Positions 34,291 through 59,063 of a stretch of DNA of 64,000 nt are shown here, piece after piece (the stretch's first letter is position 1; each line of letters begins with the position of its first letter). Origin of the DNA: a virus. Below the pieces are notes generated by a model, which ran no database searches, was not told the origin of the DNA, and saw only the letters and a program-made list of their open reading frames with translations. Made by a program: the position numbers and the translations under genes. The DNA lies in the IMG/VR virus record IMGVR_UViG_3300020419_001178, positions 81,742 through 145,741 of that record; one strand, given 5' to 3'.

Positions 34291-37200
34291 ATGGCAGATT
34301 TTAAGTTAAGTAGAATTAGATTTAATTGGAAGGGTAACTGGTCCGGCGGTGCTGATTATATCGTAGATGATATGATCCATTACAATGGATATACCTATGT
34401 AGCACTAAGAACACATACTTCAGCAGATTTTTATAATGATCTAGCAGGAACAGATAAAACACCCGCTCAACCAAAATGGAAAAAACAATCAGAAGGCGTC
34501 AGCTGGAAAAAAGATTGGAGTACAAGTACACTTTACTCTGTAGGAAATATTGTAAAATACGGTGCGTCAGTTTATCAATGTACTGAATCACATACTTCAT
34601 CTGGTACACTAGCATCAGGTACAGACGGACTTGTTGCTGATATAACAAAATGGACATTAGTTGCTGTTTCGTCAGCTGATTGGAAATACAACTGGACAGT
34701 AAGCACACTATATAGAATTAATGACCTTGTTAGATACAACGGTAAAGTTTACAAATGTACAGCCCAGCACGTATCTGCTGTAACTATATTACTAGGACTA
34801 GAAGCAGACCAAGCTAAATGGACAGTATTATCAGACTCGGATACTTGGAGAGCAACTTGGGCAATTGGAACAAGATATAAAGTTAATGATATTGTTAAGT
34901 ATGGTGGTATTGTATATAAATGTATCACAGGACATACTTCAGCAGACAATACTGCTTTAGGCCTAGAAGAAGATCAAGCTAAATGGGAAATACAAATTTC
35001 CGGAATTGAATACAAAAGTTTATGGACCGGCGAAGTACGTTATAAAGTAAATGACATAGTCAAGCGTGGCGGAAACTTAATGAAATGTATTGTTGGTCAT
35101 ACAGCAACTGCAGGTGATAACGGATTTCAAACAGATTATGCTACAAGTAAGTGGAGCATATATCTTCCAGGAACTGAATACGATAGTGTTTGGGATAATG
35201 GTGTTTATTATCAGTCAGGTGACCTAGTTCTTTATGGCGGATATATTTACAAAGCAGTAACTTTTAACACAAATAAACCACCAAGCCAATACACTGGTGA
35301 CTGGAACTTAACTTTTGAAGGATACAAATTTAGAGGTGACTGGAACCTAGCAGGATCAGAAGATAGTGCTGATATTAATTACTTAACTGGTGATATTGTT
35401 AGACTTACAGGTACTTTATATATTGCTATTCAAGACAGCACAAACTTACAACCAGACCAGTGGCCAACATATTGGGAAAAACTTGTAGATGGTAGAAACT
35501 TTAGAAACTTCTGGGAAGATAACACAGAATATTATCAAGGCGATATTGTAACTTGGGCTGGTACAGCGTATGTTTCACTCAAATATCATCGTTCAACTGA
35601 ATCAGCATCTAGACCAGATCTTGATGTAGAACAACCAGATAACGATTACTGGAAGTTAATGATTCTAGGTAATAGAACAAACAAACTTGCGAGAAAAGGT
35701 GATCTTAAGACATTTGAAGATCAAGATTCTACAGCAATTGACACACAAAGATTAGCTATTGGGCAAGACGGTGCCGCTTTAATTTCAACAGGTACAATGC
35801 CTGCTTGGGACTTAATTGATTTAGCAAACAATGTTTATTATGTATCTACTGATGGAATAGATGATCCAGATAGAGGTGGAACATTAAACGCACCATTTAG
35901 AACAGTGAGATACGCTACACAATATCTATTTTTAGACGAAGTGAATAGAGTAGGCACTGGAGCAACTATATCAGTTGCGGCAGGAGATTACAAAGAAGTA
36001 CTGCCAATTAGCTTACCAGCAAAGGTAGCGTTAGTTGGAGCAGAACTAAGATCAACAAGTATTAGTCCAGCCCTTAACGGAATAGATGTTGTTTTAGGAC
36101 CAAGAAATGCTAAAGGCGAACAGACAGCTTTAACAATTCCTACATTGAACGAAAGAAACGATATGTTCTATGTAAGAAATAGTTGTGGTATAAGAAGACT
36201 TACTTTAAGAGGATTGACTGGCGTATTAAGTGTAGCAAATACTTACGGAACAAAACGCCCATCAGGTGGAGCATTTGTTTCTTTAGATCCAGGTACAGGT
36301 TCTTCAGATACTGATGTTTGGATTGCTAGTAAGTCAAAAGCATACTATACACCTTCTACTGCTACATACAATCCAGCAGACGGTGTGTTTACAATGACAT
36401 TACCTACACAACAATATACTGTTACAGATGCTACATATGATCCAAAGTCAGGAGTAATGGTAGCTACAATAGGAAATCACACACTAGACGTAGGAGAAAC
36501 AATTAGAATAGCTACAGAAAGTGTTTCATTTACATGTTCTAAAGACAATTATACTTCAGTTCATGCTTATCCAAGAATAAGTGATCCAGCGGCTGGAGCA
36601 GACATAAGAATATTTGATAAATCTGCTACAACTATTTCAGTAAATGTTGGTAAGAGTAAAGATACAGATCAATATACACATAAATTTTCAAGTGCTACTA
36701 ACAACGGTATAACTTGGAATCATAATTTAAAAGTTGGTAATTCAATAGCGATTGCCGGCAATGCTTTTACTTTTACTTGTACAATGGACGGAAACACAGC
36801 ACAGAAAACATATCCAAGAGTAACAGACCCTGCTTACAATCAAAAATTAGCAATTACAGCGGTAACAACTACATCGTTCACAGTGAATGTAGGAAAGTCT
36901 AGTGCTAGTGATCAATATGCTCATACTTTTGTATCAGTTAATCCAGAATCAGTTAGCTTTGAAAGAATATCTGCGGGACGTTCACCTTACATTCAAGGTG
37001 TAACAACTATTGGAGATAATTGTGTTGGAATGAAAATTGACGGAGCATTACATAACGGCGGAAACAGATCAATCGTTGCTAACGACTTTACACAGGTATT
37101 AAGTGATGGAATTGGATACTGGGCAACAAATCTAGGACGTTCAGAGCTAGTGTCTGTGTTTACATATTACGCACACATAGGTTACCTTGCTGAAAACGGC

Positions 37201-39837
37201 GGAATAATGAGAGCTACAAACGGAAACAACTCTTACGGAGACTTTGGTTCAGTAGCAGAAGGATTTGATGCTAACGAAACACCACAAACTGCGACAGTAA
37301 ACAACAGGGCAACGGAAGCACAAGTTGATAATATCTTTACAGATGGTTCACAAGTACTTGCCTTAGAATATACTAACGCAGGAGAAACATATAGCAACGC
37401 AACAGCGGCATTTACACAAGTTGCTGGAACAGGATTATCTGTATATTGGGAAGAATTTAGACAAGGAGCTGTTAACAAGATTGAATTAGAACTACCTGAT
37501 GATAGTACAAACATTGGTGGTAGAGGATTTCAATTTGCTACAAACAATGCCCAAGCAGGAGATTTAACAAGTATTACATTATCTGCTTCAGAGTCAAGAA
37601 CAGCATCGCAAATAAACGGTTCAAGAATAGTTATTACAGAAGGTCCAGGAGGCGGACAATATGGTTATATTGTAAATTATAATGCGTCAACAAAAGTAGC
37701 ACAGGTTTATAAAGACAGTACAGGTACACCAGGATTTGATAATTTACTTGCTGGTAAAGTTAATGCTACAGCATTAGGAGCAACAACAGTATATGCTATA
37801 GAACCAAGAGTGACTGTGTCAGCACCAACATTTACTGTTTCAAACAACAGTATTCAAGCAGGTGCTCCAGACGTAGGTTACAGTGATACTTTAGGACTTT
37901 GGTATTACGGAATAACTGGTACTGATGATTTTTATACATCAGCAGATGGAAGTGTTTGGACACAAAGACCAACATCGGGTAGTAATATTACAGCAAAAAA
38001 TTACACAGCATTTTCTAAGTCAGGTCCAATATTAGCGGCCGTGGCAAATGCTACCAATCAATTAGTATTTTCAAATGATGGAGCAACATTTGATACTTCA
38101 ACATTACCAGCAACAAACAATTGGTCAAGAGTACAAATAGGCGGACTTAATGATGATGTAATTATGGCGACTGGAAATAACAATTCAGATATTTACGTTG
38201 GATCATTAGTTACAGCAAGTGATAGTACTGTCGTAACAGGAACTTGGTCAACCAAAGCACTTGGAACAGGAAATAAAAATTGGGTAGGATTGGCTTACGG
38301 AGCAGGCAAATGGATTGCTATTGCTACTGACGGAACAACAGTTACATCAGCTGATAACGGAGTATCATGGAGTTCAGGAACAGCAGTAACACCAGGTGGA
38401 TCAGAAGAATATACTGATTTAGTTTTTGGTAATAATGCTTGGGTAGCATCTATGAAAAATTCAGATAGAGTTATATACAGCGCCGACGGATCAAACTGGT
38501 ACGATGCGGCATTACTAGGAGACTCTACAGCTAACGCATGGAAAGTTGGTTACACTCAAGGAGCTTTTGTTTGTGTAAATGAAAATGGAAATGCTTTAGA
38601 ATCAGGTGACGCACATAACTGGAATGTCATTACAACAGTAAACAATTTGACAGCTATAGTAGGTGGCGTTGCTTCTAATACTCCGACTTGGATAGGTGTA
38701 AGACAAAGCACAGGCACAGGAAATATTATTACGGGTGGTAAGAAAGCATTCGCAAGAGCTGTAGTTGCTACAAATAAAATTAGTCAGTTCTTACTATATG
38801 AAGTAGGTAGTGGATATGATACTTCAAGTCCTCCTACAGTAACAGTTTATGATCCAGAAGAAACAGGAGAACCTTATTATACAGTTACAGTAAGAAATGG
38901 CGTTATAGGACAACCTACTTTTTACAATAGAGGAACTGGATATGCGACAGCAGTTATAGCAATCACTGGTAACGGTTATGCTGAAGCAAAACAAACAGGA
39001 AATTCAATGGTAATTACTGGAATAGATCTTGTTCCAGGACCAGGAGCAAACGTTGTGTTTACAGGAGATGCGACAGTTTACAGATTAGTTAAAGTAACTA
39101 AGACAGAAGGATCTGCTCCTAATAGACAAATTACATTCCAAATATCTCCAATACTTACAAGAGCAACAGCACCATTACATGGTGTAACAGCTACTATAAG
39201 AGAAAGATATTCACAATGTAGATTAACAGGACACGACTTCCTAGATATTGGTACAGGTAACTTTGCTAATACAAATTATCCAGCACTTTATATCGCTGGA
39301 CAAACCAGTGTAAACGAAACTGAACAAGCAAATGAAGTACGTGAAGCCAATGGTGGTAGGGTGTTCTACACAAGTACAGACCAAGATGGTAACTATAGGG
39401 TAGGTGAACTATTTAAAGTTTCACAGGCACAAGGTGGTGTGACTCTAAGTGCTGACTTCTTTAACTTGGAAGGTTTAGACGAAATTAGATTAGGTGGTAT
39501 TAGTGTAGGTGGTACACAAGCTGTTATTAGAGAATTTTCTACAGAAACTACTTTTGTAGCAAATAGTAACAATATTATACCAACAGAAAAAGCACTGAAA
39601 TCATATATTGAGAATAGATTTACAGGAGGTGGATCTAATCTGTTTACAAACGCACTTACAGCGGGACAGATTAAGCTAGAATCAAGGACTATATCCAACA
39701 CAGCTGGATCAAATAATCCAAATGCGATGGCAACAATTTCACCTAACTTTGAAATTAGGGGGTCGTTAGGCGGAGGACTAGCGGCACTTAATATGTTCTT
39801 TTCATCAAGAACTGAAAGAGATGACTTTAACGGATAA
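34291..39837 (+). CDS. giant fibre with eight CBM5/12-like repeats, beta-helix and beta-propeller insert
   Basis: An 1848-residue protein. Residues 1-~460 hold eight repeats of the type 'W-x5-Y-x3-D-x-V-x-Y-x-G-x-x-Y-x-C-x-x-x-H-T' (for example WAIGTRYKVNDIVKYGG), resembling CBM5/12 chitin-type carbohydrate-binding modules. A beta-helix follows from ~515 (VYYVSTDGIDDPDRGGTLNA). Next come two tandem ~80-residue beta units ending VNVGKS near 790 and 870. A BNR-like beta-propeller at ~1185-1485 (WYYGITGTDDFYTSADGSVW, NWVGLAYGAGKWIAIATDGT) comes before a conserved end domain (LTGHDFLDIGTGNFANTNYP). The modular build suggests a sugar-binding long tail fibre. The neighbouring 1615-aa copy lacks the propeller. 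Confidence 0.85.
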   Translation: MADFKLSRIRFNWKGNWSGGADYIVDDMIHYNGYTYVALRTHTSADFYNDLAGTDKTPAQPKWKKQSEGVSWKKDWSTSTLYSVGNIVKYGASVYQCTESHTSSGTLASGTDGLVADITKWTLVAVSSADWKYNWTVSTLYRINDLVRYNGKVYKCTAQHVSAVTILLGLEADQAKWTVLSDSDTWRATWAIGTRYKVNDIVKYGGIVYKCITGHTSADNTALGLEEDQAKWEIQISGIEYKSLWTGEVRYKVNDIVKRGGNLMKCIVGHTATAGDNGFQTDYATSKWSIYLPGTEYDSVWDNGVYYQSGDLVLYGGYIYKAVTFNTNKPPSQYTGDWNLTFEGYKFRGDWNLAGSEDSADINYLTGDIVRLTGTLYIAIQDSTNLQPDQWPTYWEKLVDGRNFRNFWEDNTEYYQGDIVTWAGTAYVSLKYHRSTESASRPDLDVEQPDNDYWKLMILGNRTNKLARKGDLKTFEDQDSTAIDTQRLAIGQDGAALISTGTMPAWDLIDLANNVYYVSTDGIDDPDRGGTLNAPFRTVRYATQYLFLDEVNRVGTGATISVAAGDYKEVLPISLPAKVALVGAELRSTSISPALNGIDVVLGPRNAKGEQTALTIPTLNERNDMFYVRNSCGIRRLTLRGLTGVLSVANTYGTKRPSGGAFVSLDPGTGSSDTDVWIASKSKAYYTPSTATYNPADGVFTMTLPTQQYTVTDATYDPKSGVMVATIGNHTLDVGETIRIATESVSFTCSKDNYTSVHAYPRISDPAAGADIRIFDKSATTISVNVGKSKDTDQYTHKFSSATNNGITWNHNLKVGNSIAIAGNAFTFTCTMDGNTAQKTYPRVTDPAYNQKLAITAVTTTSFTVNVGKSSASDQYAHTFVSVNPESVSFERISAGRSPYIQGVTTIGDNCVGMKIDGALHNGGNRSIVANDFTQVLSDGIGYWATNLGRSELVSVFTYYAHIGYLAENGGIMRATNGNNSYGDFGSVAEGFDANETPQTATVNNRATEAQVDNIFTDGSQVLALEYTNAGETYSNATAAFTQVAGTGLSVYWEEFRQGAVNKIELELPDDSTNIGGRGFQFATNNAQAGDLTSITLSASESRTASQINGSRIVITEGPGGGQYGYIVNYNASTKVAQVYKDSTGTPGFDNLLAGKVNATALGATTVYAIEPRVTVSAPTFTVSNNSIQAGAPDVGYSDTLGLWYYGITGTDDFYTSADGSVWTQRPTSGSNITAKNYTAFSKSGPILAAVANATNQLVFSNDGATFDTSTLPATNNWSRVQIGGLNDDVIMATGNNNSDIYVGSLVTASDSTVVTGTWSTKALGTGNKNWVGLAYGAGKWIAIATDGTTVTSADNGVSWSSGTAVTPGGSEEYTDLVFGNNAWVASMKNSDRVIYSADGSNWYDAALLGDSTANAWKVGYTQGAFVCVNENGNALESGDAHNWNVITTVNNLTAIVGGVASNTPTWIGVRQSTGTGNIITGGKKAFARAVVATNKISQFLLYEVGSGYDTSSPPTVTVYDPEETGEPYYTVTVRNGVIGQPTFYNRGTGYATAVIAITGNGYAEAKQTGNSMVITGIDLVPGPGANVVFTGDATVYRLVKVTKTEGSAPNRQITFQISPILTRATAPLHGVTATIRERYSQCRLTGHDFLDIGTGNFANTNYPALYIAGQTSVNETEQANEVREANGGRVFYTSTDQDGNYRVGELFKVSQAQGGVTLSADFFNLEGLDEIRLGGISVGGTQAVIREFSTETTFVANSNNIIPTEKALKSYIENRFTGGGSNLFTNALTAGQIKLESRTISNTAGSNNPNAMATISPNFEIRGSLGGGLAALNMFFSSRTERDDFNG

Positions 39838-48103: not shown

Positions 48104-48111
48104 GATAAATA
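48104..48111 (+). promoter_or_regulatory. late promoter
   Basis: GATAAATA, 20 bases before the ATG at 48131, followed by a GTAGGAGC ribosome site. Confidence 0.75.
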
Positions 48112-48130: not shown

Positions 48131-48922
48131 ATGAGAAGAATAGAAAAAACATTTACTTACCCTGTTTGGGACGCATGGAGATCAAACAGCTTTGCTAAAG
48201 GTTTAACTGGAACACATACTTATAAAGGTCCAGAATTTTTAACTTTAGAAGTAAACAGTGACAAAACTAGTGAAGATTATGGTAAAGAATCTGGCTGGTG
48301 TTTAACGCTTAAAACAGAATTTGAAAGACCTACTGGTGCTGATATTATGAGAGTCACCGTAGATTGTAAAGAAAATCCATTGCTTTGTGAAATTGCTAAC
48401 GACGAAGGACGTGAAGACTTAGTTGATATGCGTCGTGGTAGAAAATGGGAAGTACTTTGGGACGCTCCAGACGGTTACCCAGATGTAGAACATACTACTC
48501 AAGTAGAACCAAGAGATATCTATGATGAATGGAACATTACCTATGACATTGAGAACGATAAATGGAATATACCAGCACACGATTGGGAAGCAACAGGTGT
48601 TAATAAATCAATTACTTGGAACGATGTTAGAGACGTTAGAGATGCTCACTTACACGAAACTGACGCTAAGGTAGGACAAACAGATGCTCCTGCCGCATTA
48701 CAAAAAGAGTGGACAGATTACAGACAAAAATTAAGAGATCTTCCAGCTGTAATGACAGCAAAAGGTTATGAACCTTGGCAAGCGGTGATGATGTTTCCTT
48801 CATATCCTAAAGATATGCGTGATCCGGAAGCGTCTTCAGATCCAAACGATCCATACAGAGATGGTGCTTATTCCATTGATGTTGAAGTACACGCACTAAG
48901 AACAGCTGGTAAAAAAGGCTAA
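48131..48922 (+). CDS. protein with phage tail assembly chaperone-like C-terminal segment
   Basis: A 263-residue acidic protein. The N-terminal ~110 residues form a beta-rich domain (FTYPVWDAWRSNSFAKGLTG). A linker with DWEATGVNKSITWNDVRDVR follows. Residues ~195-235 read QKEWTDYRQKLRDLPAVMTA with a following FPSYPKD. This 'W-x-x-YR-x-x-LRDLP...P...FP-x-P' pattern is that of the phage tail assembly chaperone family found beside tail-fibre genes. It could help fold or attach the Cys-rich or giant fibre proteins just upstream. The N-terminal domain is not recognised. Confidence 0.65.
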   Translation: MRRIEKTFTYPVWDAWRSNSFAKGLTGTHTYKGPEFLTLEVNSDKTSEDYGKESGWCLTLKTEFERPTGADIMRVTVDCKENPLLCEIANDEGREDLVDMRRGRKWEVLWDAPDGYPDVEHTTQVEPRDIYDEWNITYDIENDKWNIPAHDWEATGVNKSITWNDVRDVRDAHLHETDAKVGQTDAPAALQKEWTDYRQKLRDLPAVMTAKGYEPWQAVMMFPSYPKDMRDPEASSDPNDPYRDGAYSIDVEVHALRTAGKKG

Positions 48923-48953: not shown

Positions 48954-48961
48954 TATAAATA
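48954..48961 (+). promoter_or_regulatory. late promoter of the enzyme cassette, perfect T4 box
   Basis: TATAAATA with a preceding C, identical to the T4 late consensus, 31 bases before the TTG start at 48992. It is the only promoter I see for the nine following coupled genes. Confidence 0.85.
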
Positions 48962-48991
48962 TTTCTGTACAAGGAAATATTGGAGTTTAAT

Positions 48992-50050
48992 TTGTCTCGA
49001 AAAAAAGCATATTTTATGAACGGTGGAGCAGGCCGTGTTATAGCGTCTATTCCTGCTTTTGAAAAGTTATACGAAAAAGATCAAGATTTTATCATTGTTT
49101 GTGAAGGAGGTATGGACTTTTATAAGGGGCATCCTAAATTACACGAACTAGCATACGATCATTGGCATAAAAATTTATTCAAAGATTATATTAAAGATAG
49201 AGATTGTATAACACCTGAACCTTATAGAGTTTGGGAATACTACAATCAAAAATGTAGCTTATCACAAGCGTTTGATATTGCTATCAATAACGAAGGTGTA
49301 AGAGATTTACCTGATCCGACTATCCATATGAACAAGCACGAACTTGTACAAGGATATAAAGTTGTGGAAGAGATTAAAGCAGTCACTGGTAAAGATAAAA
49401 TAGTAATATTCCAACCATTTGGCCGCACAGCTGAAAACATGGGAGACTTTGTAATTGATGGAACATCAAGAAGTTTTCATTTAAATGATGTTATTAAAAT
49501 ATGTAAAGACTTAAGAGACGATTATGCTGTAATTGTTATGAGTGAATTTCCAATTACTATAGAAGAAAATCCAAAAGTTCCAATAGCAGTACCACAAATT
49601 CCAGATGTAAGAGTTTGGTCAAGTGTTATCCAGATAGCAGATCATTTCTTAGGTTGTGATAGTTTAGGACAACACATGGCAAAAGCATTAGGAACTACGT
49701 GTACTAGTGTTATTGGAAGCACGTATCCTATTAATATTTCTTATCCTAATTCAGAAGATTTTGATATTATTGACTTAGGCGAAGGAAAAAGAAAATTTAG
49801 CCCAATAAGATTATCAATGGAAGATGAAATTGAAAGGTATAACGACGAAGTTATGGAGTTGACTGATGAAAGTTTTAAAAAAATTATATCAAGTGTGCGT
49901 AAACGTCTTGGTAAGCCTAGGGCTTATACGGGAACCTATAAACCGGACCAAGGACAAGGAGAAGTTTGCCCGACGCATGGGGTCGTTCACAATGATGGAG
50001 TAACACATGCTAAACCACAAGCACAGATCTTAGGGAGAACTGGACAATGA
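48992..50050 (+). CDS. GT9 (heptosyltransferase)-like glycosyltransferase
   Basis: A 352-residue protein, GT-B-like. I start it at the TTG at 48992, because GGAG (48982-48985) is correctly spaced for it; the open frame begins four codons earlier at another TTG. FMNGGAGRVIASIPAFEKLY resembles the glycine loop and 'P-x-x-x-L' helix of ADP-heptose/GT9 enzymes. Later DKIVIFQPFGRTAENMGDF and IQIADHFLGCDSLGQHMAKA match the family's donor-site half ('D-S-x-x-x-H-x-A-x-A-L-G'). The last ~35 residues hold a Cys/His cluster (CPTHGVVHNDGVTH) of unknown use. It probably adds a sugar to a glycan or protein. The next ATG overlaps its stop. Confidence 0.7.
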   Translation: MSRKKAYFMNGGAGRVIASIPAFEKLYEKDQDFIIVCEGGMDFYKGHPKLHELAYDHWHKNLFKDYIKDRDCITPEPYRVWEYYNQKCSLSQAFDIAINNEGVRDLPDPTIHMNKHELVQGYKVVEEIKAVTGKDKIVIFQPFGRTAENMGDFVIDGTSRSFHLNDVIKICKDLRDDYAVIVMSEFPITIEENPKVPIAVPQIPDVRVWSSVIQIADHFLGCDSLGQHMAKALGTTCTSVIGSTYPINISYPNSEDFDIIDLGEGKRKFSPIRLSMEDEIERYNDEVMELTDESFKKIISSVRKRLGKPRAYTGTYKPDQGQGEVCPTHGVVHNDGVTHAKPQAQILGRTGQ

Positions 50051-51870
50051 CACAGTGGATCGGAGCAATTACAAGAGGACATAATGGTGGAGCAGTTCTA
50101 CTAAAGGATGGACAGATTGTTTTTGCCATAGAAGAAGAAAGATTATCAAGAAAAAAATACGACGGCGGCCCTTTTGCCGCTATGCTAAAATTTAAAGAGT
50201 TTACTGACAAGTTAGATTATTTGGTTGTAGCACATACACAGCCATTAGAAGACTCTAGTAGAGTAGACTTTAGTGGAGGTGATATCTATACAGGACTAGC
50301 AAGAAAACTAGGACTAATTGACGGTAAAGATTCAGCTTATGATCAAAAGTCTCAGCATAGACAAGTAATAGATTTAAGTCATATTCACCACAAGTTACAT
50401 GCGGCCTGTTCTTTTTATAGATCAGGTTTTGATTCAGCAACAGCAGTAATTGTTGACGGAGCAGGTACTTTTATTCCAATGAACATAAATTCAGGAAATT
50501 TTAACGAAGAGTTTATGACATGGGAATGTGAAAGTTTGTTTTCTTGTGCCTATCCCGATGATTTTAAAACTTTATATAAACATCAAGGAGGAAACGGTCC
50601 TTATCCTGGTACATATATTACACAAATACCTAGTGATAGAGAAGGTGAAGAAGGATTTCATGAATTAGTATTAGATGACTCTGCTGGAATAACAAAAGCA
50701 TACGAAGCTGTTACACAATATTGTGGATTTCAACCTATAGAAGCTGGCAAGACAATGGGACTAGCTCCTTATGGAAAACCAAACAGTAAAATTCCAGCAC
50801 TTTATACAGATGGCTCAGGAGGAAAATGGAGAACAGCAGACAGAAATGTCATTATTCCAACTTATCCTAATGCGGCTTTAGTAAATGACGGGAAGTATGA
50901 ATACTTACATACATCTTTTGATTTACAAAACAGTAAAGTAGACCTTACTACATTAGAAAATAGAAGAGATCTTGCTTATGCTGTACAAGAACAATCACAA
51001 GAAGAGGTTTTAAAATTAATATTCAAAGCAGTAGAGATGACTGGTAATAAAAATGTTGTTTTAAGTGGAGGATATGCTTTGAATTGTGTGGCAAACTATT
51101 GGTATTTAGATAAACTTAATAAAGAAGGAATTAACCTGTATGTTGAACCTGTGTCTAGCGATGCTGGTACAGCCATAGGAGCCGCTTTATTATTATATCA
51201 TCAATTAACAAAAGATAAAACTGTTAGACCTCATACTGAAACTATATACGAAGGTTTTAAATATGAGTTGACACTCAATGAAATAGATAATATAGCTGAA
51301 AAATATGGAGCATCAGTAAGTGATGTTGATCATAAAAAAGTAGTTGAAACTATTAGAGACAGAAATATTGTTGCTTTATGGCAAGGGTGTTCTGAAAACG
51401 GACCAAGAGCTTTAGGTAATAGAAGTTTATTATTTGATCCAACAATTGAAGACGGCAAAGACCATGTAAACAAAGTAAAAAGAAGAGAATACTTTAGACC
51501 ATTTGCTGGTACAATTATGTTAGAGCATGCAGAAGAGTGGTTTGATATGCGAGGATTAGAACAATCACCTCATATGATGTATGCTATGAATTGTAAAGAA
51601 GGTGTAGCAGAAAAGATACCTTCCATAATTCATGTTGACGGAACTTGTAGAATACAGACTGTAACTAAGGAACAAAATGAACATTATTATAATATTATAA
51701 AAGAGTTTTATGACCAATCTGGTGTTCCTATTATTTTCAACACAAGTTTTAATTTAGGTGGAGAACCATTAGTTGAAACATTAGATGATGCTGTCAGAAC
51801 TTTATATAACAGTGAAATTGAATATCTTTATCTACCTGAATATGGAAAATTGGTAGAAATGAAGAACTAA
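50047..51870 (+). CDS. NodU/CmcH-type carbamoyltransferase
   Basis: A 607-residue carbamoyltransferase, which moves a carbamoyl group from carbamoyl phosphate via carbamoyl-AMP to a hydroxyl, usually on a sugar or antibiotic. Visible features are GHNGGA (11-16), EEERLSRKK (29-37), HIHHKLHAACSFYRSGF near 110 with metal-binding His, VVLSGGYALNCVANY, SSDAGTAIGAALLLYH, and the C-terminal domain with CSENGPRALGNRSLLFDP and FRPFAGTIMLE. It is full-length with all motifs. ATGA overlap with the glycosyltransferase suggests the carbamoylated sugar is on the same glycan; that is inference. Confidence 0.92.
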   Translation: MTQWIGAITRGHNGGAVLLKDGQIVFAIEEERLSRKKYDGGPFAAMLKFKEFTDKLDYLVVAHTQPLEDSSRVDFSGGDIYTGLARKLGLIDGKDSAYDQKSQHRQVIDLSHIHHKLHAACSFYRSGFDSATAVIVDGAGTFIPMNINSGNFNEEFMTWECESLFSCAYPDDFKTLYKHQGGNGPYPGTYITQIPSDREGEEGFHELVLDDSAGITKAYEAVTQYCGFQPIEAGKTMGLAPYGKPNSKIPALYTDGSGGKWRTADRNVIIPTYPNAALVNDGKYEYLHTSFDLQNSKVDLTTLENRRDLAYAVQEQSQEEVLKLIFKAVEMTGNKNVVLSGGYALNCVANYWYLDKLNKEGINLYVEPVSSDAGTAIGAALLLYHQLTKDKTVRPHTETIYEGFKYELTLNEIDNIAEKYGASVSDVDHKKVVETIRDRNIVALWQGCSENGPRALGNRSLLFDPTIEDGKDHVNKVKRREYFRPFAGTIMLEHAEEWFDMRGLEQSPHMMYAMNCKEGVAEKIPSIIHVDGTCRIQTVTKEQNEHYYNIIKEFYDQSGVPIIFNTSFNLGGEPLVETLDDAVRTLYNSEIEYLYLPEYGKLVEMKN

Positions 51871-52481
51871 TGTTCATAGATCTTTATTCTATTCCAGTTT
51901 TTTCACAGCCTTTATCAACACACGCCGAAGTCAAAGAAGACTTTTCATCAGTTATTAATGATGATTCTAATTTTAACAAGTACCCTAGTTGGTATTGTAA
52001 TGTTGATACTACATTTGGACTACCTGAGTCAAGTAAATTACCGTTCCATAATTTTATTAAAGGTGCTGTAAGCGGATTGAATAGTTATCTTGGCAAATTA
52101 GGAGTAGATTCTAATGTAGCATATGGAGTAGAATGTTGGCTCAATAGATACAGCAAGAATCAACATCAAGAATTACACAATCATGCTGGAGAGAGTGTTA
52201 TAAGTTGTGCTTACATGCTAAAACTTCCGCCTGACAGTGGCAGATTTGTTTTTTATCGTAACACTTATGATTTTTTCCATAATAGTACATTACCTGGTTT
52301 GTCTTCAGAGCCTTTTAGATACAACAATAGAGTAACTCCACCATTACGTGAAGGAGATATTGTATTTTTTCCTAGTGTGCTAGAGCATTATGTTACAGTT
52401 AATGAAAGTGATAATATAAGAGCTACTATAAGTGCTAACTTCGTCATAAAAGAGAGAAATAATGAAGAAAAATCAGATTAA
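51870..52481 (+). CDS. 2OG-Fe(II) oxygenase-like protein, no. 1
   Basis: A 203-residue cupin-fold protein. ELHNHAGESVISCAYMLKLP supplies His103/His105 as first iron ligands, and EGDIVFFPSVLEHYVTVNES with DNIRATISANF gives His173 and the 2-oxoglutarate-binding Arg184. This layout is that of phage-common 2OG-Fe(II) oxygenases of the hydroxylase type. Such enzymes hydroxylate proteins, nucleobases or small molecules. It is coupled to the carbamoyltransferase by TAATG and overlaps the next gene by 20 bases. The substrate cannot be told. Confidence 0.8.
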   Translation: MFIDLYSIPVFSQPLSTHAEVKEDFSSVINDDSNFNKYPSWYCNVDTTFGLPESSKLPFHNFIKGAVSGLNSYLGKLGVDSNVAYGVECWLNRYSKNQHQELHNHAGESVISCAYMLKLPPDSGRFVFYRNTYDFFHNSTLPGLSSEPFRYNNRVTPPLREGDIVFFPSVLEHYVTVNESDNIRATISANFVIKERNNEEKSD

Positions 52482-53169
52482 CGAAGATGAAATTTTTGAA
52501 ATAAACTCCGACTATTCAGTTCATGTACAAAAATTAGGAAATAAAGAAACTATTGTACTTACTGTTGACGATTTTTATAAACATCCTATGGCTGTACGAC
52601 AACTTGCTTTAGATATACCAGCATCTTATAATAAAAGGATACGAGGAAACAATCCGGCATGGCGTATAAACGCATTTTATGTTCTAGATTCAATGTCTTG
52701 GATATTCGATCAGCTGTGTAGACAATATTATCACGATATAATGTCTCACTGGTCACCTAATATGATGATGGAAAGTTTTCAAAGGGCAACTTTTATGGTT
52801 AACGTAATGCAATCTGAAAATTTACCACCTGTTGCTCCGCATATGGACAATCCTAGTGGATTAAACTTTGCTAGTACCATTTATTTAAACACTGAAAACG
52901 AAAGTAATGGTGGAACTTCCTTTTATGAGTTTGCCGGAAACGAGTCTATTGACGATCCTGATCTATATAACTATTATGACAAGCAGAAAACTACTCCTAT
53001 TACAAAATATATTACGGAATCAATAGGAGATTGGAAAATGACTGGTATGGTTCCTATGAAATTTAATAGGATGGTCTTATATCCACAAAACATGTTACAT
53101 ACTGCTTATGTCAAGCAAGGAATGTTTTATGATAATTTATATAGACTTAACCAACAGTTTTTTATTTAG
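52462..53169 (+). CDS. DUF6445/2OG-oxygenase-like protein, no. 2
   Basis: A 235-residue protein. The double-stranded beta-helix core is visible: PHMDNPSGLNFASTIYLN carries His127-x-Asp129, GGTSFYEFAG follows, and RMVLYPQNMLHTAYV holds His213, with Arg228 in YRLNQQFFI as co-substrate ligand. This matches a family (DUF6445) that I associate with tryptophan-halogenase gene neighbourhoods, and a halogenase homologue is indeed three genes downstream. It overlaps gene no. 1, so both are translated together. Iron site intact; substrate unknown. Confidence 0.75.
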   Translation: MKKNQINEDEIFEINSDYSVHVQKLGNKETIVLTVDDFYKHPMAVRQLALDIPASYNKRIRGNNPAWRINAFYVLDSMSWIFDQLCRQYYHDIMSHWSPNMMMESFQRATFMVNVMQSENLPPVAPHMDNPSGLNFASTIYLNTENESNGGTSFYEFAGNESIDDPDLYNYYDKQKTTPITKYITESIGDWKMTGMVPMKFNRMVLYPQNMLHTAYVKQGMFYDNLYRLNQQFFI

Positions 53170-53177
53170 GAGGTAAT

Positions 53178-53753
53178 ATGGAAGGCGACTTTAACGGAAT
53201 AGAAGAATACAAGCACGTATTCCCATTAGACTATTGTAAAAAATTAATAGAAACATTTGAGCAACGAGCTGAAATGCAGTTGACTGAACACCAAACCGGC
53301 TTTAAGAATCAAGATGAAAGAATATTTATGGACCTAGCTAACCATAATAATATGTTTCATGTAGACGCAGACTTATGTAAATTCTTTTATCAAACTATAA
53401 TGACTACATATGAAGAGAAATATAGATCAAAATACGATAGTCTTTCCGCGGTTGTACAACATTCTCCTAAAGGTATGAGCTTACAAAAGACTAGACCACA
53501 CCAAGGTTACCATGCTTGGCATTGTGAGAACGCAGATTTATGTACTTCTTCAAGAGTAATGGCATATACTTTATACCTAAATGCCGTAGAAGAAGGTGGT
53601 GAGACAGAATTTTTATATCAAGGTGTAAAAATTAAACCAGAGCCTGGCAAGTTGGCATTTTTTCCAGCATATTATACACACCCACATAGGGGAAATCCTA
53701 TATACAAAGGTGTAAAATACATAGTGTCCGGTTGGTATACTTTAGACGAATAG
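53178..53753 (+). CDS. 2OG-Fe(II) oxygenase, prolyl-hydroxylase-like, no. 3
   Basis: A 191-residue protein. YHAWHCENAD at 111-120 supplies His115-x-Glu117, LYLNAVEEGGETEFLYQG follows, then PGKLAFFPAYYTHPHRG with the distal His168/His170 and GVKYIVSGWYTL with a Lys as possible 2OG ligand. Order and spacing are those of prolyl-4-hydroxylase-type 2OG oxygenases, though the second ligand is Glu instead of the usual Asp. It has the best ribosome site in the cassette (AGGAGGT). It is not closely similar to the other two oxygenases by eye. Confidence 0.8.
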   Translation: MEGDFNGIEEYKHVFPLDYCKKLIETFEQRAEMQLTEHQTGFKNQDERIFMDLANHNNMFHVDADLCKFFYQTIMTTYEEKYRSKYDSLSAVVQHSPKGMSLQKTRPHQGYHAWHCENADLCTSSRVMAYTLYLNAVEEGGETEFLYQGVKIKPEPGKLAFFPAYYTHPHRGNPIYKGVKYIVSGWYTLDE

Positions 53754-53761
53754 GAGTTACA

Positions 53762-54127
53762 ATGAAATTATTAATAGCAATACTAGTTGTATTTACAGCA
53801 GTCGCAGTATTTACAGATACAAGAGCAAAAGCAGGAGAATGGAACGAAAAACCTGTGATGTGTGGAGAAGAAACAGAAGTTTTTGGACTTATGGGTTCAA
53901 AAGACGAACAATTATTAATGACAGGTGACCTATTAGCTAAAGTAAAAGATCCTGACGAAGCAAATGGTTTATCACCTGTACCTGCTATATTGCCTTTGGC
54001 TGTTTATGTAAACTTTGATACTGGTTCATTCACTATTGTAGAGCGTCATGGAGATCCTTATAATGTATATTGTATAATTGCTTTAGGACAAGGCATGAAA
54101 CTTCCTAATTATGGAGGAACTGAGTGA
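53762..54127 (+). CDS. small exported protein inside the enzyme cassette
   Basis: A 121-residue protein. I use the ATG at 53762, preceded by TAGGAG; the frame is open ten codons upstream but inside the previous gene. MKLLIAILVVFTAVAVF followed by TDTRAKAG is a clear signal peptide with a cleavage site near residue 24. The mature part is a small beta domain (AVYVNFDTGSFTIVERHGDP) with two Cys that could form one disulfide. I recall secreted proteins of this kind in T4-like marine phages, with no known function. An exported protein in a late enzyme cassette suggests an envelope role. Confidence 0.75.
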   Translation: MKLLIAILVVFTAVAVFTDTRAKAGEWNEKPVMCGEETEVFGLMGSKDEQLLMTGDLLAKVKDPDEANGLSPVPAILPLAVYVNFDTGSFTIVERHGDPYNVYCIIALGQGMKLPNYGGTE

Positions 54128-55578
54128 AAATTTGCGTCGTAGGTGGTGGTACAGCTGGCTTTGTTGCCGCCCTTATACTTAAAAAAAGTTATCCAGATTA
54201 TATTGTAGATGTAATCAGAAGCACAAAGATCGGCACCATAGGTGTTGGTGAAGGAAGTACTGAACATTGGTCAGCCTTTATGGATTTTTGTGGAATACCT
54301 GTTGGAGAACTTATAAAAGAAACAGATGCTACTTTTAAATCAGGTATTATGTTCCAAAATTGGAGCGATAAAGATTTTTTACAAAGTGTACATGATCCTT
54401 TTGTAGGTGAACACATGGGATTACCTCTTATGTACGCAAAATTAATAGCAGACAAGGTACCTCCTAAAGATCTTGTAGGCTCGTATACGTGGAATAGCTA
54501 TACACCGTTTAACAAATACATGGAGGAAAGACCTAACGATACAGGAGTAAGTCAATATCATTTCAATACAAGTAAGTTAAATGACTTCTTGACTAACAAA
54601 GCACAGGATTTAGGATGTAAAGTTATAGATGATGAAATTGTTGATGTAGTTGTTGACGAAAAGGGAATTGATTACATAAAAGGCGTCAGTGAATATTACG
54701 ACTATGACTTTTATATTGATTGTACAGGATTTGCTAGACTTTTAATTGGCAAGCTAGGTGGAAAATGGCAAAGTTATTCTAAATATCTCAAAATGAAAGA
54801 AGCTATTGTATTTCCTACTGAGGAAGAAGACGAAATACCTATTTGGACTGTAGCAAGAGCAATGGACAGCGGCTGGATGTTTCGAATTCCTGTATGGGGA
54901 CGCAAAGGTAATGGATATATCTATGATAGCGACTTTATATCAGCAGATGAAGCTAAGATTGAAGCTGAAAAGATACTAGGACATGAAGTTTCAGTAGCAA
55001 AAAAATTAAAATTTGATCCAGGAGCAATAGACAAGCCGTGGATTAATAATGTATGTGCAATAGGATTGTCTGCTAGTTTCGTAGAGCCATTAGAAGCAAG
55101 TAGCATAGGTACTAGTATCAATCAAAGTTTCTTATTAGCTCAACGCATTGTAAATTATAATCAAGACACCATTGTGAGATACAACAAAGAAGTTGAAGCA
55201 ATAATGAATAACATTAGAGATTTTATTTGTTTACATTACATAACCAATAAGACACATACAGAATTTTGGAAACATTTACAAGAAGTAGACATACCTGATA
55301 GTTTAGCAGATAATTTAAACATGTGGAAAACAAGATTACCTATAGCAGATGACTTTACAGATCATACGAAAAAAATTATATTTAACGAATACAATTACAT
55401 TCTAGTTATGTACGGATTAGGTTTATTAGATACACAAGCAGTTAGAAAGCAATTCGAAAGTATTCCTATGGAGGCAAAACAGTTTGTTGAACAACAAATA
55501 CAAAGTAAATTACAAAATGATAGATTAAAATCAATTCCGCATAAGATGATGTTAGATCTTATTAGGAGATTGTCGTGA
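54124..55578 (+). CDS. FAD-dependent tryptophan-halogenase family protein
   Basis: A 484-residue flavoprotein. GGGTAGF (7-13) is the FAD-binding loop. GVGEGSTEHW (40-49) is the family's second FAD motif. FKSGIMFQNW supplies Lys72, equivalent to the catalytic Lys of PrnA. NNVCAIGLSASFVEPLEASS near 310-325 holds the conserved Glu in 'EPLE'. The usual WxWxIP signature appears as GWMFRIP near 250-256, with Phe for the second Trp. A cyanophage halogenase (VirX1) of this family is known, so phage versions exist. It needs a flavin reductase from the host. It uses a GTG start overlapping the previous stop. Halogenation of an unknown substrate is inferred. Confidence 0.85.
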   Translation: MKICVVGGGTAGFVAALILKKSYPDYIVDVIRSTKIGTIGVGEGSTEHWSAFMDFCGIPVGELIKETDATFKSGIMFQNWSDKDFLQSVHDPFVGEHMGLPLMYAKLIADKVPPKDLVGSYTWNSYTPFNKYMEERPNDTGVSQYHFNTSKLNDFLTNKAQDLGCKVIDDEIVDVVVDEKGIDYIKGVSEYYDYDFYIDCTGFARLLIGKLGGKWQSYSKYLKMKEAIVFPTEEEDEIPIWTVARAMDSGWMFRIPVWGRKGNGYIYDSDFISADEAKIEAEKILGHEVSVAKKLKFDPGAIDKPWINNVCAIGLSASFVEPLEASSIGTSINQSFLLAQRIVNYNQDTIVRYNKEVEAIMNNIRDFICLHYITNKTHTEFWKHLQEVDIPDSLADNLNMWKTRLPIADDFTDHTKKIIFNEYNYILVMYGLGLLDTQAVRKQFESIPMEAKQFVEQQIQSKLQNDRLKSIPHKMMLDLIRRLS

Positions 55579-56438
55579 GAATATTTGCGTTTGGTTGTAG
55601 TTTAACGCAATATTTTTATCCTACTTGGGCTGATATACTAATTCATCAATATAGAAATAAAGGCTACGAAGGATCCAATTGGGCAAAAAGTGGAGCAGGT
55701 AACATGTATATTAACATGCGACTATGGGAAGCTAATACTATACACAAATTTAAAAAAGATGATGTAATATTGCTTCAATGGTCAAGTATGTACAGAGAAG
55801 ATAGATATCATATGGGTAGAGGTTGGTGGACCCCAGGAAACTTTAGTAGACAGACAATACAAGATGAACAAAGTTTTGTTTTAAATAATTATAGATATGA
55901 AAACACATGGGTGTGGGCAGATATTATGCACTGTACAATGCGAGACTGTGCTACAATTAGTGCTACACACAAAGCATTAGATACAATAGGATGTAAAGTC
56001 TATTCAACTTATTTTAGAGATCCTTTTGAGGGTTGGGAGGATGCTCCTAAACAATTTAATCAAACCAATCCTAAATTAGAATTAGAGGACGTTGGAGCAG
56101 TTTTAGAAACGTACAAAGAAGATATTGCTACAACCTGTCCACCAATACTTAACGCATTAAATTTTGGTGTGGAAGAAGATTTCTTTCGTACAAGACCTAA
56201 GAGTGTTCCTAGTCATAAAGAGCAACATCAGCACATGCTCACATATGAATTACATCCTTTGACACATGAAGCCGCAGATTATGTGGAAAAACATGTTGAG
56301 CCTTTGACTGACGAAACTAAAAAATTTGTAAACACCTGGAAAGATAAATTAACATCAACTGATCCTATTGTGCTAGAAGAATTACAATGGTATAATAAGG
56401 AAAAAATTGGTTGGTCAGATGATAGATGGAGACCATAA
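55575..56438 (+). CDS. SGNH-hydrolase-like protein
   Basis: A 287-residue protein with a GTG start overlapping the halogenase stop. The beginning FAFGCSLTQYFYPTWADIL has the 'G-x-S-x-T' block with Ser9 as possible nucleophile; GCS replaces the usual GDS. GSNWAKSGAGNMYINMRLW gives the Gly/Asn block (Gly40, Asn43). ILLQWSSMYREDRY and a late ELHPLTHEAADY could supply the last His. SGNH enzymes are esterases/acyl-transferases acting on glycans, lipids or small molecules. Conserved blocks are in order, but the triad is only tentative. Confidence 0.7.
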   Translation: MRIFAFGCSLTQYFYPTWADILIHQYRNKGYEGSNWAKSGAGNMYINMRLWEANTIHKFKKDDVILLQWSSMYREDRYHMGRGWWTPGNFSRQTIQDEQSFVLNNYRYENTWVWADIMHCTMRDCATISATHKALDTIGCKVYSTYFRDPFEGWEDAPKQFNQTNPKLELEDVGAVLETYKEDIATTCPPILNALNFGVEEDFFRTRPKSVPSHKEQHQHMLTYELHPLTHEAADYVEKHVEPLTDETKKFVNTWKDKLTSTDPIVLEELQWYNKEKIGWSDDRWRP

Positions 56439-57001
56439 TGTCAATACCAGTTATAGGATTAGATAGAGACGGAACTATCAATGAAGACATAGGGGACTAT
56501 GTTACAAAGCCAGAACAGTTTAAACCTATACAAGGTAGCTTAGAAGCTGTTAAAATGCTAAGAAATAAAGGGTATGACGTTGTCATACTAACTAATCAAG
56601 CAGGCATACAAAAGGGAACAATGGATGAAGTTGATGTTGATATTGTACATAATTATATGATGACACTCTTAGGAGAAATAGGTTGTAAAAGTATTAATGG
56701 ATTATATTATTCAACAACACCTTTTAAAGACGATCCTTATAGAAAACCTAACATAGGTATGTTTAAAAGAGCATCAAGTGAAATTGGAGTAGACTGGACC
56801 AACGGAGTTTATGTAGGAGATAAGATAACTGACTTGAAAGCCGCAGTAAAAGCAAAAGCAAAGCCTATATTAGTAAAAACAGGCTATGGATTAGAAACTG
56901 CTAAAAAGTTAGAAACCTTTGCTAACAAAGAATTAAAGAAAAAGACCGAAGTATACGATAATCTACTAGCTTTTGCCCATTCTTTAGTGGATATTTCCTA
57001 A
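56438..57001 (+). CDS. GmhB/HisB-N-like HAD phosphatase
   Basis: A 187-residue HAD-family phosphatase resembling D-glycero-D-manno-heptose 1,7-bisphosphate phosphatase. I start it at the ATG at 56438 (GGAG at 56428-56431), which overlaps the previous stop (TAATG). Motifs: GLDRDGTINED with nucleophile Asp9 and Asp11, VVILTNQAGIQKG, KPNIGMFKRASSEIG and YVGDKITDLKAA. The zinc-loop cysteines of true GmhB are missing (YYSTTPFKDDPYRKPN instead), as in some HisB-like relatives. With a GT9-like enzyme in the same cassette, heptose handling is plausible but not shown. Confidence 0.8.
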   Translation: MSIPVIGLDRDGTINEDIGDYVTKPEQFKPIQGSLEAVKMLRNKGYDVVILTNQAGIQKGTMDEVDVDIVHNYMMTLLGEIGCKSINGLYYSTTPFKDDPYRKPNIGMFKRASSEIGVDWTNGVYVGDKITDLKAAVKAKAKPILVKTGYGLETAKKLETFANKELKKKTEVYDNLLAFAHSLVDIS

Positions 57002-57032: not shown

Positions 57033-57040
57033 GATAAATA
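57033..57040 (+). promoter_or_regulatory. late promoter
   Basis: GATAAATA, 18 bases before the ATG at 57058, with GGAG before the start. It restarts the structural region after the enzyme cassette. Confidence 0.75.
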
Positions 57041-57575: not shown

Positions 57576-59063
57576 ATGGCAAAATCAGTAATTAACGTAG
57601 GTACAGCCGCAAACGATGGAACAGGTGATAATCTTAGAGCAGGTGCCGCAAAGATTAATGCCAACTCTGATGAGCTGTATAACGCAATAGGTGACGGCAC
57701 AACCTTAAAAGACATCATCAATTCAAATCTTGAACTTGATGTACCAAACGATAACGCAAAAATAAACAAAGTAAGTTTTCATGCGTCAACACTAAACCAA
57801 ATGAATGCTATAGACACAAGCACATATCATGGTGCTTTACTTCATGTTCATGAAGGTGGTAGTGTATATGTAGCACACGCTGGAGCATGGCACAAGATGC
57901 TTTTAGATGCTAGTGCCGGAGCAATTACAAATTACACTGATCCATTGAAGTCAGTAGCATACATAGGAAATATTAATTCATTATCAGACGTTGATACAAC
58001 AAGTTCAGCACCACAGACAGGAAACGTTCTTAAGTGGGACGGTGGTAAATGGGCACCAGGTACAGACGCAACAACAGGCGGAAGCGGTACTGACGCTGAT
58101 ACACTTGACGGCTTCGATAGTGCTTACTTTTTAAATTACAATAATCTAAATAATAAACCTACTGTTCCGACATCACTTACAGGCTTAGGTATTACAGATG
58201 GTTCAAATGGACAAGTTTTAACTACTAATGGTAGTGGTACATTTACTTTTACTACAGTCAGTAGCGGTAGCACACAGAATCTATTTGCTACATTCGGCGG
58301 AGACACAGGAACTACAACAGCAAACTCAATTACTGATACACTTACAGTAGCAGGTGGTGCTAATATTAGTACAAGTATAGTTGGTGATACACTTACTATT
58401 GCTTATACAGGTTCGCCTAACTCAGGAGAAGAAAACCAATTTGCTTTTAGTAATGTTCAATCTGATTCAGGACTAGCACAAGCTGATTCTAAAACAGACA
58501 CGCTAACAATAGCAGGTGGTACGAATATTTCTACAGCAGTATCAGGAGATACAGTAACAATTAATTATTCTGGAACAAACAACTTAACAAGTTTGGCAGA
58601 TACAACTATTACAAGTCCAGGATCAGGAGCTTTGTTTGCTTATAGCGGTTCTTCCTGGATAGACTTGAATCAAAAGATTGACCAAGTTGCCTATCAAGCA
58701 ATTACAAGATTAAAAGTTACAGCAGACTCATTCAATGGTTATAAATTTGATCAATACGGAAATACAGAAGACCCTATCATTTTTGCGATCAACGGAACAA
58801 CTATTGCGTTTGATTTAAATGACAGTTCAATGAGCAGTCATCCATTCCAAATTGAAACAAGTGGTGGTACTGCTTACAGTGAAGGACTTGTTCACGTAGC
58901 AAATAACGGAACAGAATCAACAGGATCATCTGCTCAAGGTAAAACATCAGGTACTTTATATTGGAAGATACCTTCAGCAATAAGTGGTAACTATGCTTAT
59001 CAGTGTACTAGTCATGGTGCCATGAGAGGTACTATTACTGTTAAACAGATAAGTGCGATTTAA
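57576..59063 (+). CDS. fibre/collar-like structural protein
   Basis: A 495-residue protein. VINVGTAANDGTGDNLRAGA with KINANSDELYNAIG is a start motif common in phage fibre and whisker-type proteins. The middle has repeated 'T-L-T-I-A-G-G-x-N-I-S-T' units (TDTLTVAGGANISTSIVGDT; TDTLTIAGGTNISTAVSGDT), a shaft of about 55-60-residue repeats. The C-terminal ~120 residues (FAINGTTIAFDLNDSSMSSH; GNYAYQCTSHGAMRGTITVK) resemble a cupredoxin-like domain, with Cys, His and Met near the end. Structural role likely; copper binding not established. Confidence 0.75.
   Translation: MAKSVINVGTAANDGTGDNLRAGAAKINANSDELYNAIGDGTTLKDIINSNLELDVPNDNAKINKVSFHASTLNQMNAIDTSTYHGALLHVHEGGSVYVAHAGAWHKMLLDASAGAITNYTDPLKSVAYIGNINSLSDVDTTSSAPQTGNVLKWDGGKWAPGTDATTGGSGTDADTLDGFDSAYFLNYNNLNNKPTVPTSLTGLGITDGSNGQVLTTNGSGTFTFTTVSSGSTQNLFATFGGDTGTTTANSITDTLTVAGGANISTSIVGDTLTIAYTGSPNSGEENQFAFSNVQSDSGLAQADSKTDTLTIAGGTNISTAVSGDTVTINYSGTNNLTSLADTTITSPGSGALFAYSGSSWIDLNQKIDQVAYQAITRLKVTADSFNGYKFDQYGNTEDPIIFAINGTTIAFDLNDSSMSSHPFQIETSGGTAYSEGLVHVANNGTESTGSSAQGKTSGTLYWKIPSAISGNYAYQCTSHGAMRGTITVKQISAI

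Follow-up and report, generated by a model that had tools for sequence, protein, structure and literature searches.

An enzyme cassette co-inherited with Cys-rich adhesin-like proteins in marine T4-like phages may tailor tail receptor-binding proteins

The 145,741-base virus record IMGVR_UViG_3300020419_001178 carries, among virion structural genes, a run of nine genes that encode a glycosyltransferase-like protein, a carbamoyltransferase, three 2-oxoglutarate (2OG)-Fe(II) oxygenase-like proteins, a halogenase, a hydrolase-like protein, a phosphatase, and one small protein, and this raises the question of what such a set of enzymes could modify. The window analyzed here is the whole 64,000-nucleotide stretch covering positions 81,742–145,741 of the record; coordinates are those of the window unless stated otherwise. 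Examination of the locus confirmed the arrangement described in the initial annotation: (i) nine open reading frames (ORFs) on the + strand, named here P1 to P9, occupy positions 48980–57001 with overlapping or abutting ends, the first ORF more likely starting at 48992, (ii) they stand behind a predicted late promoter, TATAAATA, at position 48954, and (iii) they are located in the adhesin region. On the 5' side, and overlooked in that annotation, are three genes for Cys/Gly-rich adhesin-like proteins (C1–C3) and a tail-assembly-chaperone-like gene (U0); on the 3' side is a baseplate/fiber connector gene similar to T4 gp9/10. The explanation that we favor, with moderate confidence, is a late, variable tailoring cassette dedicated to tail receptor-binding proteins, in which a core of the GT9-like P1 and the carbamoyltransferase P2, together with P9, would serve the Cys-rich C1–C3; both the substrate and the chemistry are predictions.

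Relatives of the cassette were collected by scanning IMG/VR with P7, P1, P8, and P6, and 55 contigs that contain P1 and at least 9.5 kb downstream of it were counted. The gene order is collinear in 52 of them, a conservation far beyond chance. P2 and P9 are present in all 55 contigs, P7 in 52, P3 and P4 in 51, P8 in 50, P5 in 47, and P6 in 11. The median ratios of nonsynonymous to synonymous polymorphism (pN/pS) of the cassette genes are 0.11–0.38, with synonymous sites near saturation; the genes are under purifying selection and are therefore maintained. A C protein is encoded upstream of P1 in every one of the 52 contigs that extend at least 2.6 kb in that direction. The reverse scan of IMG/VR, in which a diverse alignment of C proteins served as the only query, yielded, after deduplication, 42 loci that extend 6 kb or more downstream, and U0, P1, and P2 follow the C gene in all 42. 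The linkage of C, U0, P1, and P2 is obligate in both directions, and the scattering of genes among relatives that would have spoken against a unit was not found for this core.

Outside the core the cassette is less rigid than the nine-gene unit initially proposed. P6 is optional, distant relatives exchange oxygenases, and the slot between P1 and P2 holds a further 2OG-like gene (a sub-threshold Pfam match only) in many relatives and an unassigned gene or a sulfotransferase in others. The sulfotransferase (PF17784, 7.5e-31), an extra chemistry, was observed at loci L165, L080, and L081. The cultured cyanophages S-SSM7, Sf-FS3, S-CAM1, S-CAM3, and P-SSM2 retain the C-P1-P2 arrangement; in these five phages and in three single-cell viruses, proteins with approximately 8–12% Cys are encoded immediately upstream of P1-P2. 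In the same five cyanophages, P1-P2 are followed, directly or a few genes on, by genes that hidden Markov models (HMMs) identify as heptose-1-phosphate adenylyltransferase-, heptose-7-phosphate kinase (PfkB)-, HAD phosphatase-, cupin-, and heptose epimerase-like. The public label 'phosphoheptose isomerase' in P-SSM2 was considered as a possible GmhA and rejected, the gene encoding a small HAD phosphatase by HMM. At 13.2–15.1 kb, the present record has genes for a sugar-nucleotide dehydrogenase, an epimerase, and an adenylyltransferase-like protein.

The proteins to which the core is tied are unusual in composition. C1 (45563–46402; 279 residues, 30 Cys), C2 (46415–47251; 278 residues, 31 Cys), and C3 (47261–48100; 279 residues, 29 Cys), all on the + strand, are tandem paralogues directly 5' of the cassette, assigned to phrog_4205 and, for C2 and C3, also related to C1 by alignments. 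They consist of 10–11% Cys and 18–20% Gly and take ranks 1–3 in Cys content among the 99 ORFs of at least 150 residues in the 145.7-kb record, the next ORF having 3.8%. Each also contains 8–10 Trp and 10–12 Tyr, which are possible halogenation sites. Pfam model Gly_rich_2 (PF21722) exceeds its cut-off in the C homologues of S-SSM7, Sf-FS3, and S-CAM3, and because of these matches the C proteins can be tied to the adhesins that accompany VirX1-type halogenases (see below); compared directly by profile, C proteins and VirX1-type adhesins reached a probability of only 6%, and a PDB profile search with C proteins found nothing useful. The intervening U0 (48131–48922, +) matches PF16778 (Phage_tail_APC) above the cut-off and phrog_4912 (tail fiber assembly). 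The initial annotation had named virion fibers, Cys-rich proteins, or a secreted glycan as targets; the C-P1-P2 linkage narrows this choice to C1–C3 as the likeliest, and not to fibers generally.

The predicted late promoter of the cassette, TATAAATA (48954–48961, +; a pattern match), was initially called perfect. This holds for NATAAATA, which occupies a comparable position ahead of P1 in 40 of the 42 usable distinct upstream sequences (the raw count of 43/45 included three matches far from the start, in contigs ending before P1, that were excluded); the first T of TATAAATA is not special, any base occurring there in relatives. Exact copies of TATAAATA number two in the window, fewer than the 8.5 expected from shuffles, and most + strand copies of NATAAATA in the window lie shortly 5' of ORFs. 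Further late-promoter-like sequences, GATAAATA, precede U0 (48104–48111, +) and open the next structural block (57033–57040, +), in which the gp9/10-like connector (57576–59063, +; PF07880; phrog_677, 8.5e-86) bounds the cassette. A scan for promoters and terminators across the cassette gave counts not above those of shuffles. By its sequence and its conservation among relatives, the element ahead of the cassette is a predicted T4-type late promoter, and the proposal of a co-inherited unit with a conserved late-type promoter holds, with 52 of 55 contigs collinear and NATAAATA kept as above. Relatives c57, c58, c60, c62, and c64 (loci L114, L116, L118, L121, and L123) have in addition a sigma-70-like TTGC...TATAAT between NATAAATA and P1, which suggests a second, possibly earlier promoter in these distant relatives. 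The TTG codon at 48992 is preferred over 48980 and is probably the start of P1, with GGAG, kept in relatives, 6 nt 5' of it.

The family assignments of the initial annotation were largely borne out, by Pfam and HMM matches for the carbamoyltransferase, the three 2OG-like proteins, the halogenase, and the GmhB-like phosphatase and by a structure model for the glycosyltransferase. P1 (48992–50050, +; phrog_8954) has zero Pfam matches, and a PDB profile search with it returned nothing useful. A structure model built from 15 homologues (predicted local distance difference test, pLDDT, 70.8; predicted template modeling score, pTM, 0.74) retrieved in Foldseek the structure 3tov (1.3e-8), WaaC (5.6e-7), and TibC (1.8e-6), with TM-scores of about 0.5–0.6 and WaaC and TibC in the top ranks; the model points to a GT-B/GT9 heptosyltransferase-like fold. 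TibC, an enzyme of the GT9 type, heptosylates an adhesin whose gene lies next to its own (PMC4358343), and the adhesin-like C gene upstream of P1 (52/52 contigs) is a TibC-like trait. Membership of P1 in the TibC (BAHT) family itself was ruled out, P1 having neither the iron-finger nor the N-terminal barrel of that family. P2 (50047–51870, +; phrog_1601) is a NolO/NodU-type O-carbamoyltransferase (PF16861, 1.4e-56; PF02543, 2.8e-28), with Carbam_trans_N and Carbam_trans_C at 99.8 and 191.2 bits versus cut-offs of 24 and 27. P9 (56438–57001, +) is by sequence a HAD-IIIA phosphatase nearest to GmhB: the HAD DxD motif is present as DRDGT, and the GmhB models are matched under their cut-offs (PRK08942, 7.5e-41, 139.6 bits against 178; TIGR00213, 93 bits against 149.6). 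The Cys-rich zinc loop of GmhB is absent from the P9 sequence, which falls outside the curated definition of GmhB.

The remaining genes encode mainly predicted oxygenases and the halogenase. P3 (51870–52481, +) matches 2OG-FeII_Oxy_5 (PF13759) above the cut-off and has a nearly invariant but unusual HxH...H...R motif: both His and the distal His are invariant in 31 sequences, and the carboxylate-ligand position is occupied by His. P4 (52462–53169, +) belongs to DUF6445 in Pfam; it is classified as a 2OG oxygenase because its HxD...H...R motif is invariant in 38/38 sequences and a generic 2OG model matches it. P5 (53178–53753, +) is a 2OG oxygenase of the prolyl-hydroxylase type (PF13640, 2OG-FeII_Oxy_3, 1.2e-11; phrog_61, 9.5e-39) with HxE...H...K, the motif HxE/D-H-K being present in 21/21 sequences. 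P7 (54124–55578, +) is a flavin-dependent, tryptophan-type halogenase (PF04820, 1.2e-90), which matches the VirX1 structure 6qgm at 6.5e-41. With its active-site positions aligned to 8fov and 5hy5, Lys72 (the equivalent of PrnA K79) and Glu321 are found in 54/54 sequences and Glu324 in 52/54; the dinucleotide motif GxGxxG appears as GGGTAG, nearly invariant across the 54 sequences. The halogenase motif WxWxIP is replaced by WxFxIP in all 35 sequences of the window's clade, and the second W is kept in 15/54 overall. The catalytic residues of P7 and of P3–P5 thus appear intact, with His at the carboxylate-ligand position of P3.

Two genes of the cassette have no match in family searches. P8 (55575–56438, +) gave none in HMM searches of Pfam, NCBIfam, and PDB, and it is termed SGNH hydrolase-like for its conserved SGNH-like blocks: the GCS-box Ser9, GxGN, and ExHP, in which the Asp of the SGNH DxxH is replaced by Glu, are invariant. 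P6 (53762–54127, +; start at ATG 53762) is a small protein with an N-terminal signal-like segment and zero family matches in HMM searches. Its relatives, at 53 IMG/VR loci, are mostly outside the cassette and at times near a 2OG gene; from its sequence and distribution P6 looks like a mobile insert. A defense system was considered and rejected, PADLOC yielding only the generic 2OG model.

A similar association of tailoring enzymes with tail genes was observed for halogenases of other phages. VirX1 of cyanophage Syn10 (PDB 6qgm), the first characterized viral halogenase, is a flavin-dependent enzyme of the same family as P7, with which it shares only about 26% identity. Its active site is large and accessible (PMC8407142). 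The product of syn9 gene 42 matches 6qgm over the full length (1271 bits), and the Syn10 gene is at the same place. In syn9, Syn10, P-RSM6, S-SZBM1, S-WAM1, P-TIM40, and Sf-CH3, the halogenase comes right after a tail fiber gene and tandem 'tail fiber assembly'/tail-fiber genes and is followed by several 2OG genes; in syn9 and Syn10, the VirX1-type gene stands behind tail fiber and gp38-like Gly_rich_2-type genes, with DUF6445/2OG genes next; the Gly_rich_2-type genes of Syn10 are CPUG_00135 and CPUG_00134. The tandem gene of S-WAM1 that was tested is a Gly_rich_2 gene, to which those of the other phages can be aligned. The S-WAM1 cluster also includes a gene of JmjC_2, a family of protein hydroxylases. 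Among 19 IMG/VR contigs retrieved with the S-WAM1 halogenase, the fiber-linked order is kept in the 15 with a close match and is not seen in the four with a more distant one (39–42% identity). The halogenases of S-SSM7 and S-SRM01 are likewise located among fiber/adhesin genes. On a tree of 41 halogenases, with IMG/VR rows left unlabeled though several of them are also fiber-linked, the label 'fiber-linked' requires five changes, at least four of them supported by well-supported branches; fiber-linked halogenases occur in at least four clades. The VirX1 phage differs from the present one in that its adhesins are not Cys-rich and no P1 homologue was found in it. Several public labels in these clusters are misleading: 'DNA endonuclease V' (L236, L248) denotes 2OG oxygenases by Pfam, 'tail fiber assembly' in S-WAM1 a Gly_rich_2 protein, and 'minor coat protein' (phrog_1644) a DUF6445/2OG-like protein.

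Under the favored explanation, the core would act on C1–C3 during their folding with U0, before they join the virion. P1 would transfer a heptose-type sugar from a nucleoside diphosphate (NDP)-sugar; P9 would be the phosphatase for supply of the heptose donor, the other steps coming from the host or from the NDP-sugar genes elsewhere in the record; and P2 would carbamoylate the sugar, as NolO-type enzymes do. P3–P5 would hydroxylate side chains, a reaction known for 2OG and JmjC_2 enzymes, P7 would halogenate exposed Trp/Tyr residues, and P8 would trim or move an acyl group. That chemistries are exchanged or added in relatives (sulfotransferase, extra 2OG, JmjC hydroxylase) would fit a rapidly changing coat at the surface of the tip that contacts the host.

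Several observations weigh against this explanation. GT9 enzymes usually carry a catalytic Asp in an N-terminal GD motif, and in a motif-level comparison P1 has an invariant Arg (NGGAGR) at this position. No four-Cys set corresponding to the TibC iron-finger is conserved in P1, and the N-terminal beta-barrel of TibC, of approximately 97 residues, is absent, P1 starting directly with the Rossmann domain. C1–C3 of the window are below the Gly_rich_2 cut-off, the model of C2 (pLDDT 28.6) allows no fold to be assigned to C, and C1–C3 are putative virion proteins. SIS_2 (GmhA) and PfkB genes were not found in the present record. The halogenase is away from fiber genes in 7 of the 15 annotated phages examined, including P-SSM2, S-MbCM6, S-B64, and S-RIM44, and in marine T4-like phages the fiber region is hypervariable in general (PMC7029224). 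The two latter observations favor a different explanation, namely that the recombination-prone fiber-neck region gathers late metabolic genes without joint or fiber-directed action, as do the gene churn in distant relatives and the optional P6. We consider such hot-spot cargo quite unlikely in view of the 52 collinear contigs, a C-U0-P1-P2 order that is never split, the presence of P2 and P9 throughout, the strong purifying selection, and the fact that separate clades have recruited similar enzymes behind genes of the Gly_rich_2 type.

The enzymes could also be directed at the host. Modification of the host envelope (lipopolysaccharide (LPS)/O-chain or capsule) during infection, for instance for superinfection block or progeny escape, would place them near the fibers in a host-interaction island; glycosyltransferases in the host recognition cluster of pelagimyophages have been interpreted in this way (PMC7029224), 'LPS' genes belonging to this set have been described in cyanophages (PMC3037559), and in bacteria the GT9, GmhB, and HldE-like families act in LPS synthesis. 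The linkage found here ties the enzymes to one particular family of Cys-rich adhesin-like proteins and its chaperone-like partner, not to fibers generally, the promoter is of the late type, and neither the halogenase nor the three 2OG oxygenases nor JmjC belong among LPS enzymes, so that we regard this explanation as unlikely. A secreted small-molecule or glycan natural product, antibiotic-like or signaling, is very improbable: no scaffold-forming genes (nonribosomal peptide synthetase, polyketide synthase, precursor of a ribosomally synthesized and post-translationally modified peptide, or terpene) were recognized in the cassette, a diffusible product made at burst gains little, and the adhesin linkage is invariant, even if halogenase, carbamoyltransferase, glycosyltransferase, and oxygenases are typical tailoring enzymes and an antibiotic role was once proposed for phage prnA (PMC2984593). 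Hypermodification of DNA by hydroxylation, glycosylation, and carbamoylation of bases has precedents in phages that carbamoylate and glycosylate oxidized 5-methylcytosine; here we give it almost no weight, with 2OG genes of the peptide/prolyl-hydroxylase and DUF6445 types, a late promoter, a fiber location, and a halogenase that it leaves unexplained. A search of the record for Tet_JBP gave no match, a result to which we attach no weight because the control genomes gave none either.

Comparison with known systems indicates where the proposed tailoring cassette is new. The BAHT family (TibC/Aah acting on TibA/AIDA-I, PMC4358343) is alike in the GT9/GT-B-type fold, the transferase gene beside the adhesin gene, and the NDP-heptose genes, which are found in cassette relatives; the cassette differs from it by the added carbamoyl, hydroxyl, and halogen enzymes and by the context of a phage tail instead of an autotransporter. 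The pelagimyophage host recognition cluster and the cyanophage 'LPS' group T4-GC 304, 305, 307, and 308 represent the same type of genome region (PMC7029224, PMC3037559), and T4-GC302–308 correspond to the P1-P2-heptose run of P-SSM2 and S-SSM7. Earlier papers took these genes to modify the host O-chain or to be possible stuffer DNA (PMC7029224, PMC3037559); 2OG genes were tied to nitrogen signaling or DNA repair, and an antibiotic role was suggested for the halogenase (PMC3037559, PMC2984593). That P1-P2 are paired exclusively with Cys-rich adhesin-like proteins speaks against these readings, host-envelope modification and hot-spot cargo keeping some probability. A near-identity DNA search among annotated phages gave zero matches, and a literature search, with most subscription journals outside its reach, found no account of a joint adhesin-linked tailoring unit, of the genomic context of VirX1, or of a linkage to Cys-rich adhesins. 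Phage glycosyltransferases decorate the phage's own virion proteins in actinobacteriophages; to our knowledge, those enzymes belong to different families and come without a halogenase, a carbamoyltransferase, or a 2OG set. Fiber-region islands, phage halogenases, phage 2OG genes, LPS-type genes, and virion glycosylation are each known separately, and the initial statement that no such phage system had been described is retained, provisionally, for the joint adhesin-linked unit.

The rest of the record shows mixed affinities. The major capsid protein (22280–23467) is closest (67–71%) to large T4-like phages of Sinorhizobium, Vibrio, and Pseudomonas, and the fiber island resembles those of cyanophages and pelagiphages; this difference suggests a mosaic origin of the phage. 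The gene psbA was not found in the record or in the records of six relatives, and a cyanobacterial host is unsupported, psbA being absent from the record and the best matches of the capsid being non-cyanobacterial T4-like phages. A large fiber protein (34291–39837) contains seven matches to the carbohydrate-binding module CBM_5_12 (3.8e-42). At 33.5–62.7 kb of the record, 5' of the window, a second tail-protein-like block is located beside a cluster of enzyme genes, most of them on the - strand, and may form with it a second fiber-tailoring island; the cluster encodes another NolO-like carbamoyltransferase (PF16861, 9.9e-68), a GDSL-like hydrolase, and several proteins that resemble enzymes but have no Pfam match.

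A broader proposal, which we put forward tentatively and consider rather less than even in likelihood, is that marine T4-like phages diversify their receptor-binding tips post-translationally: VirX1-type halogenases would act on tail adhesins, the GT9-like/carbamoyltransferase pair would decorate Cys-rich adhesins, perhaps at Cys residues, with carbamoylated heptose-type sugars, and the coat would change in chemistry more quickly than the adhesins do in sequence. VirX1-type halogenases gain concrete candidate substrates in the adhesin-like proteins whose genes directly precede theirs, and many marine phage genes classed as 'auxiliary metabolic' (halogenase, 2OG, 'LPS', and carbamoyltransferase genes) could be re-read as serving virion construction and not host metabolism. 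If this is true, phages recognize their hosts not by adhesin sequence alone but also by chemistry that enzymes install, with consequences for the prediction of host range from genomes.

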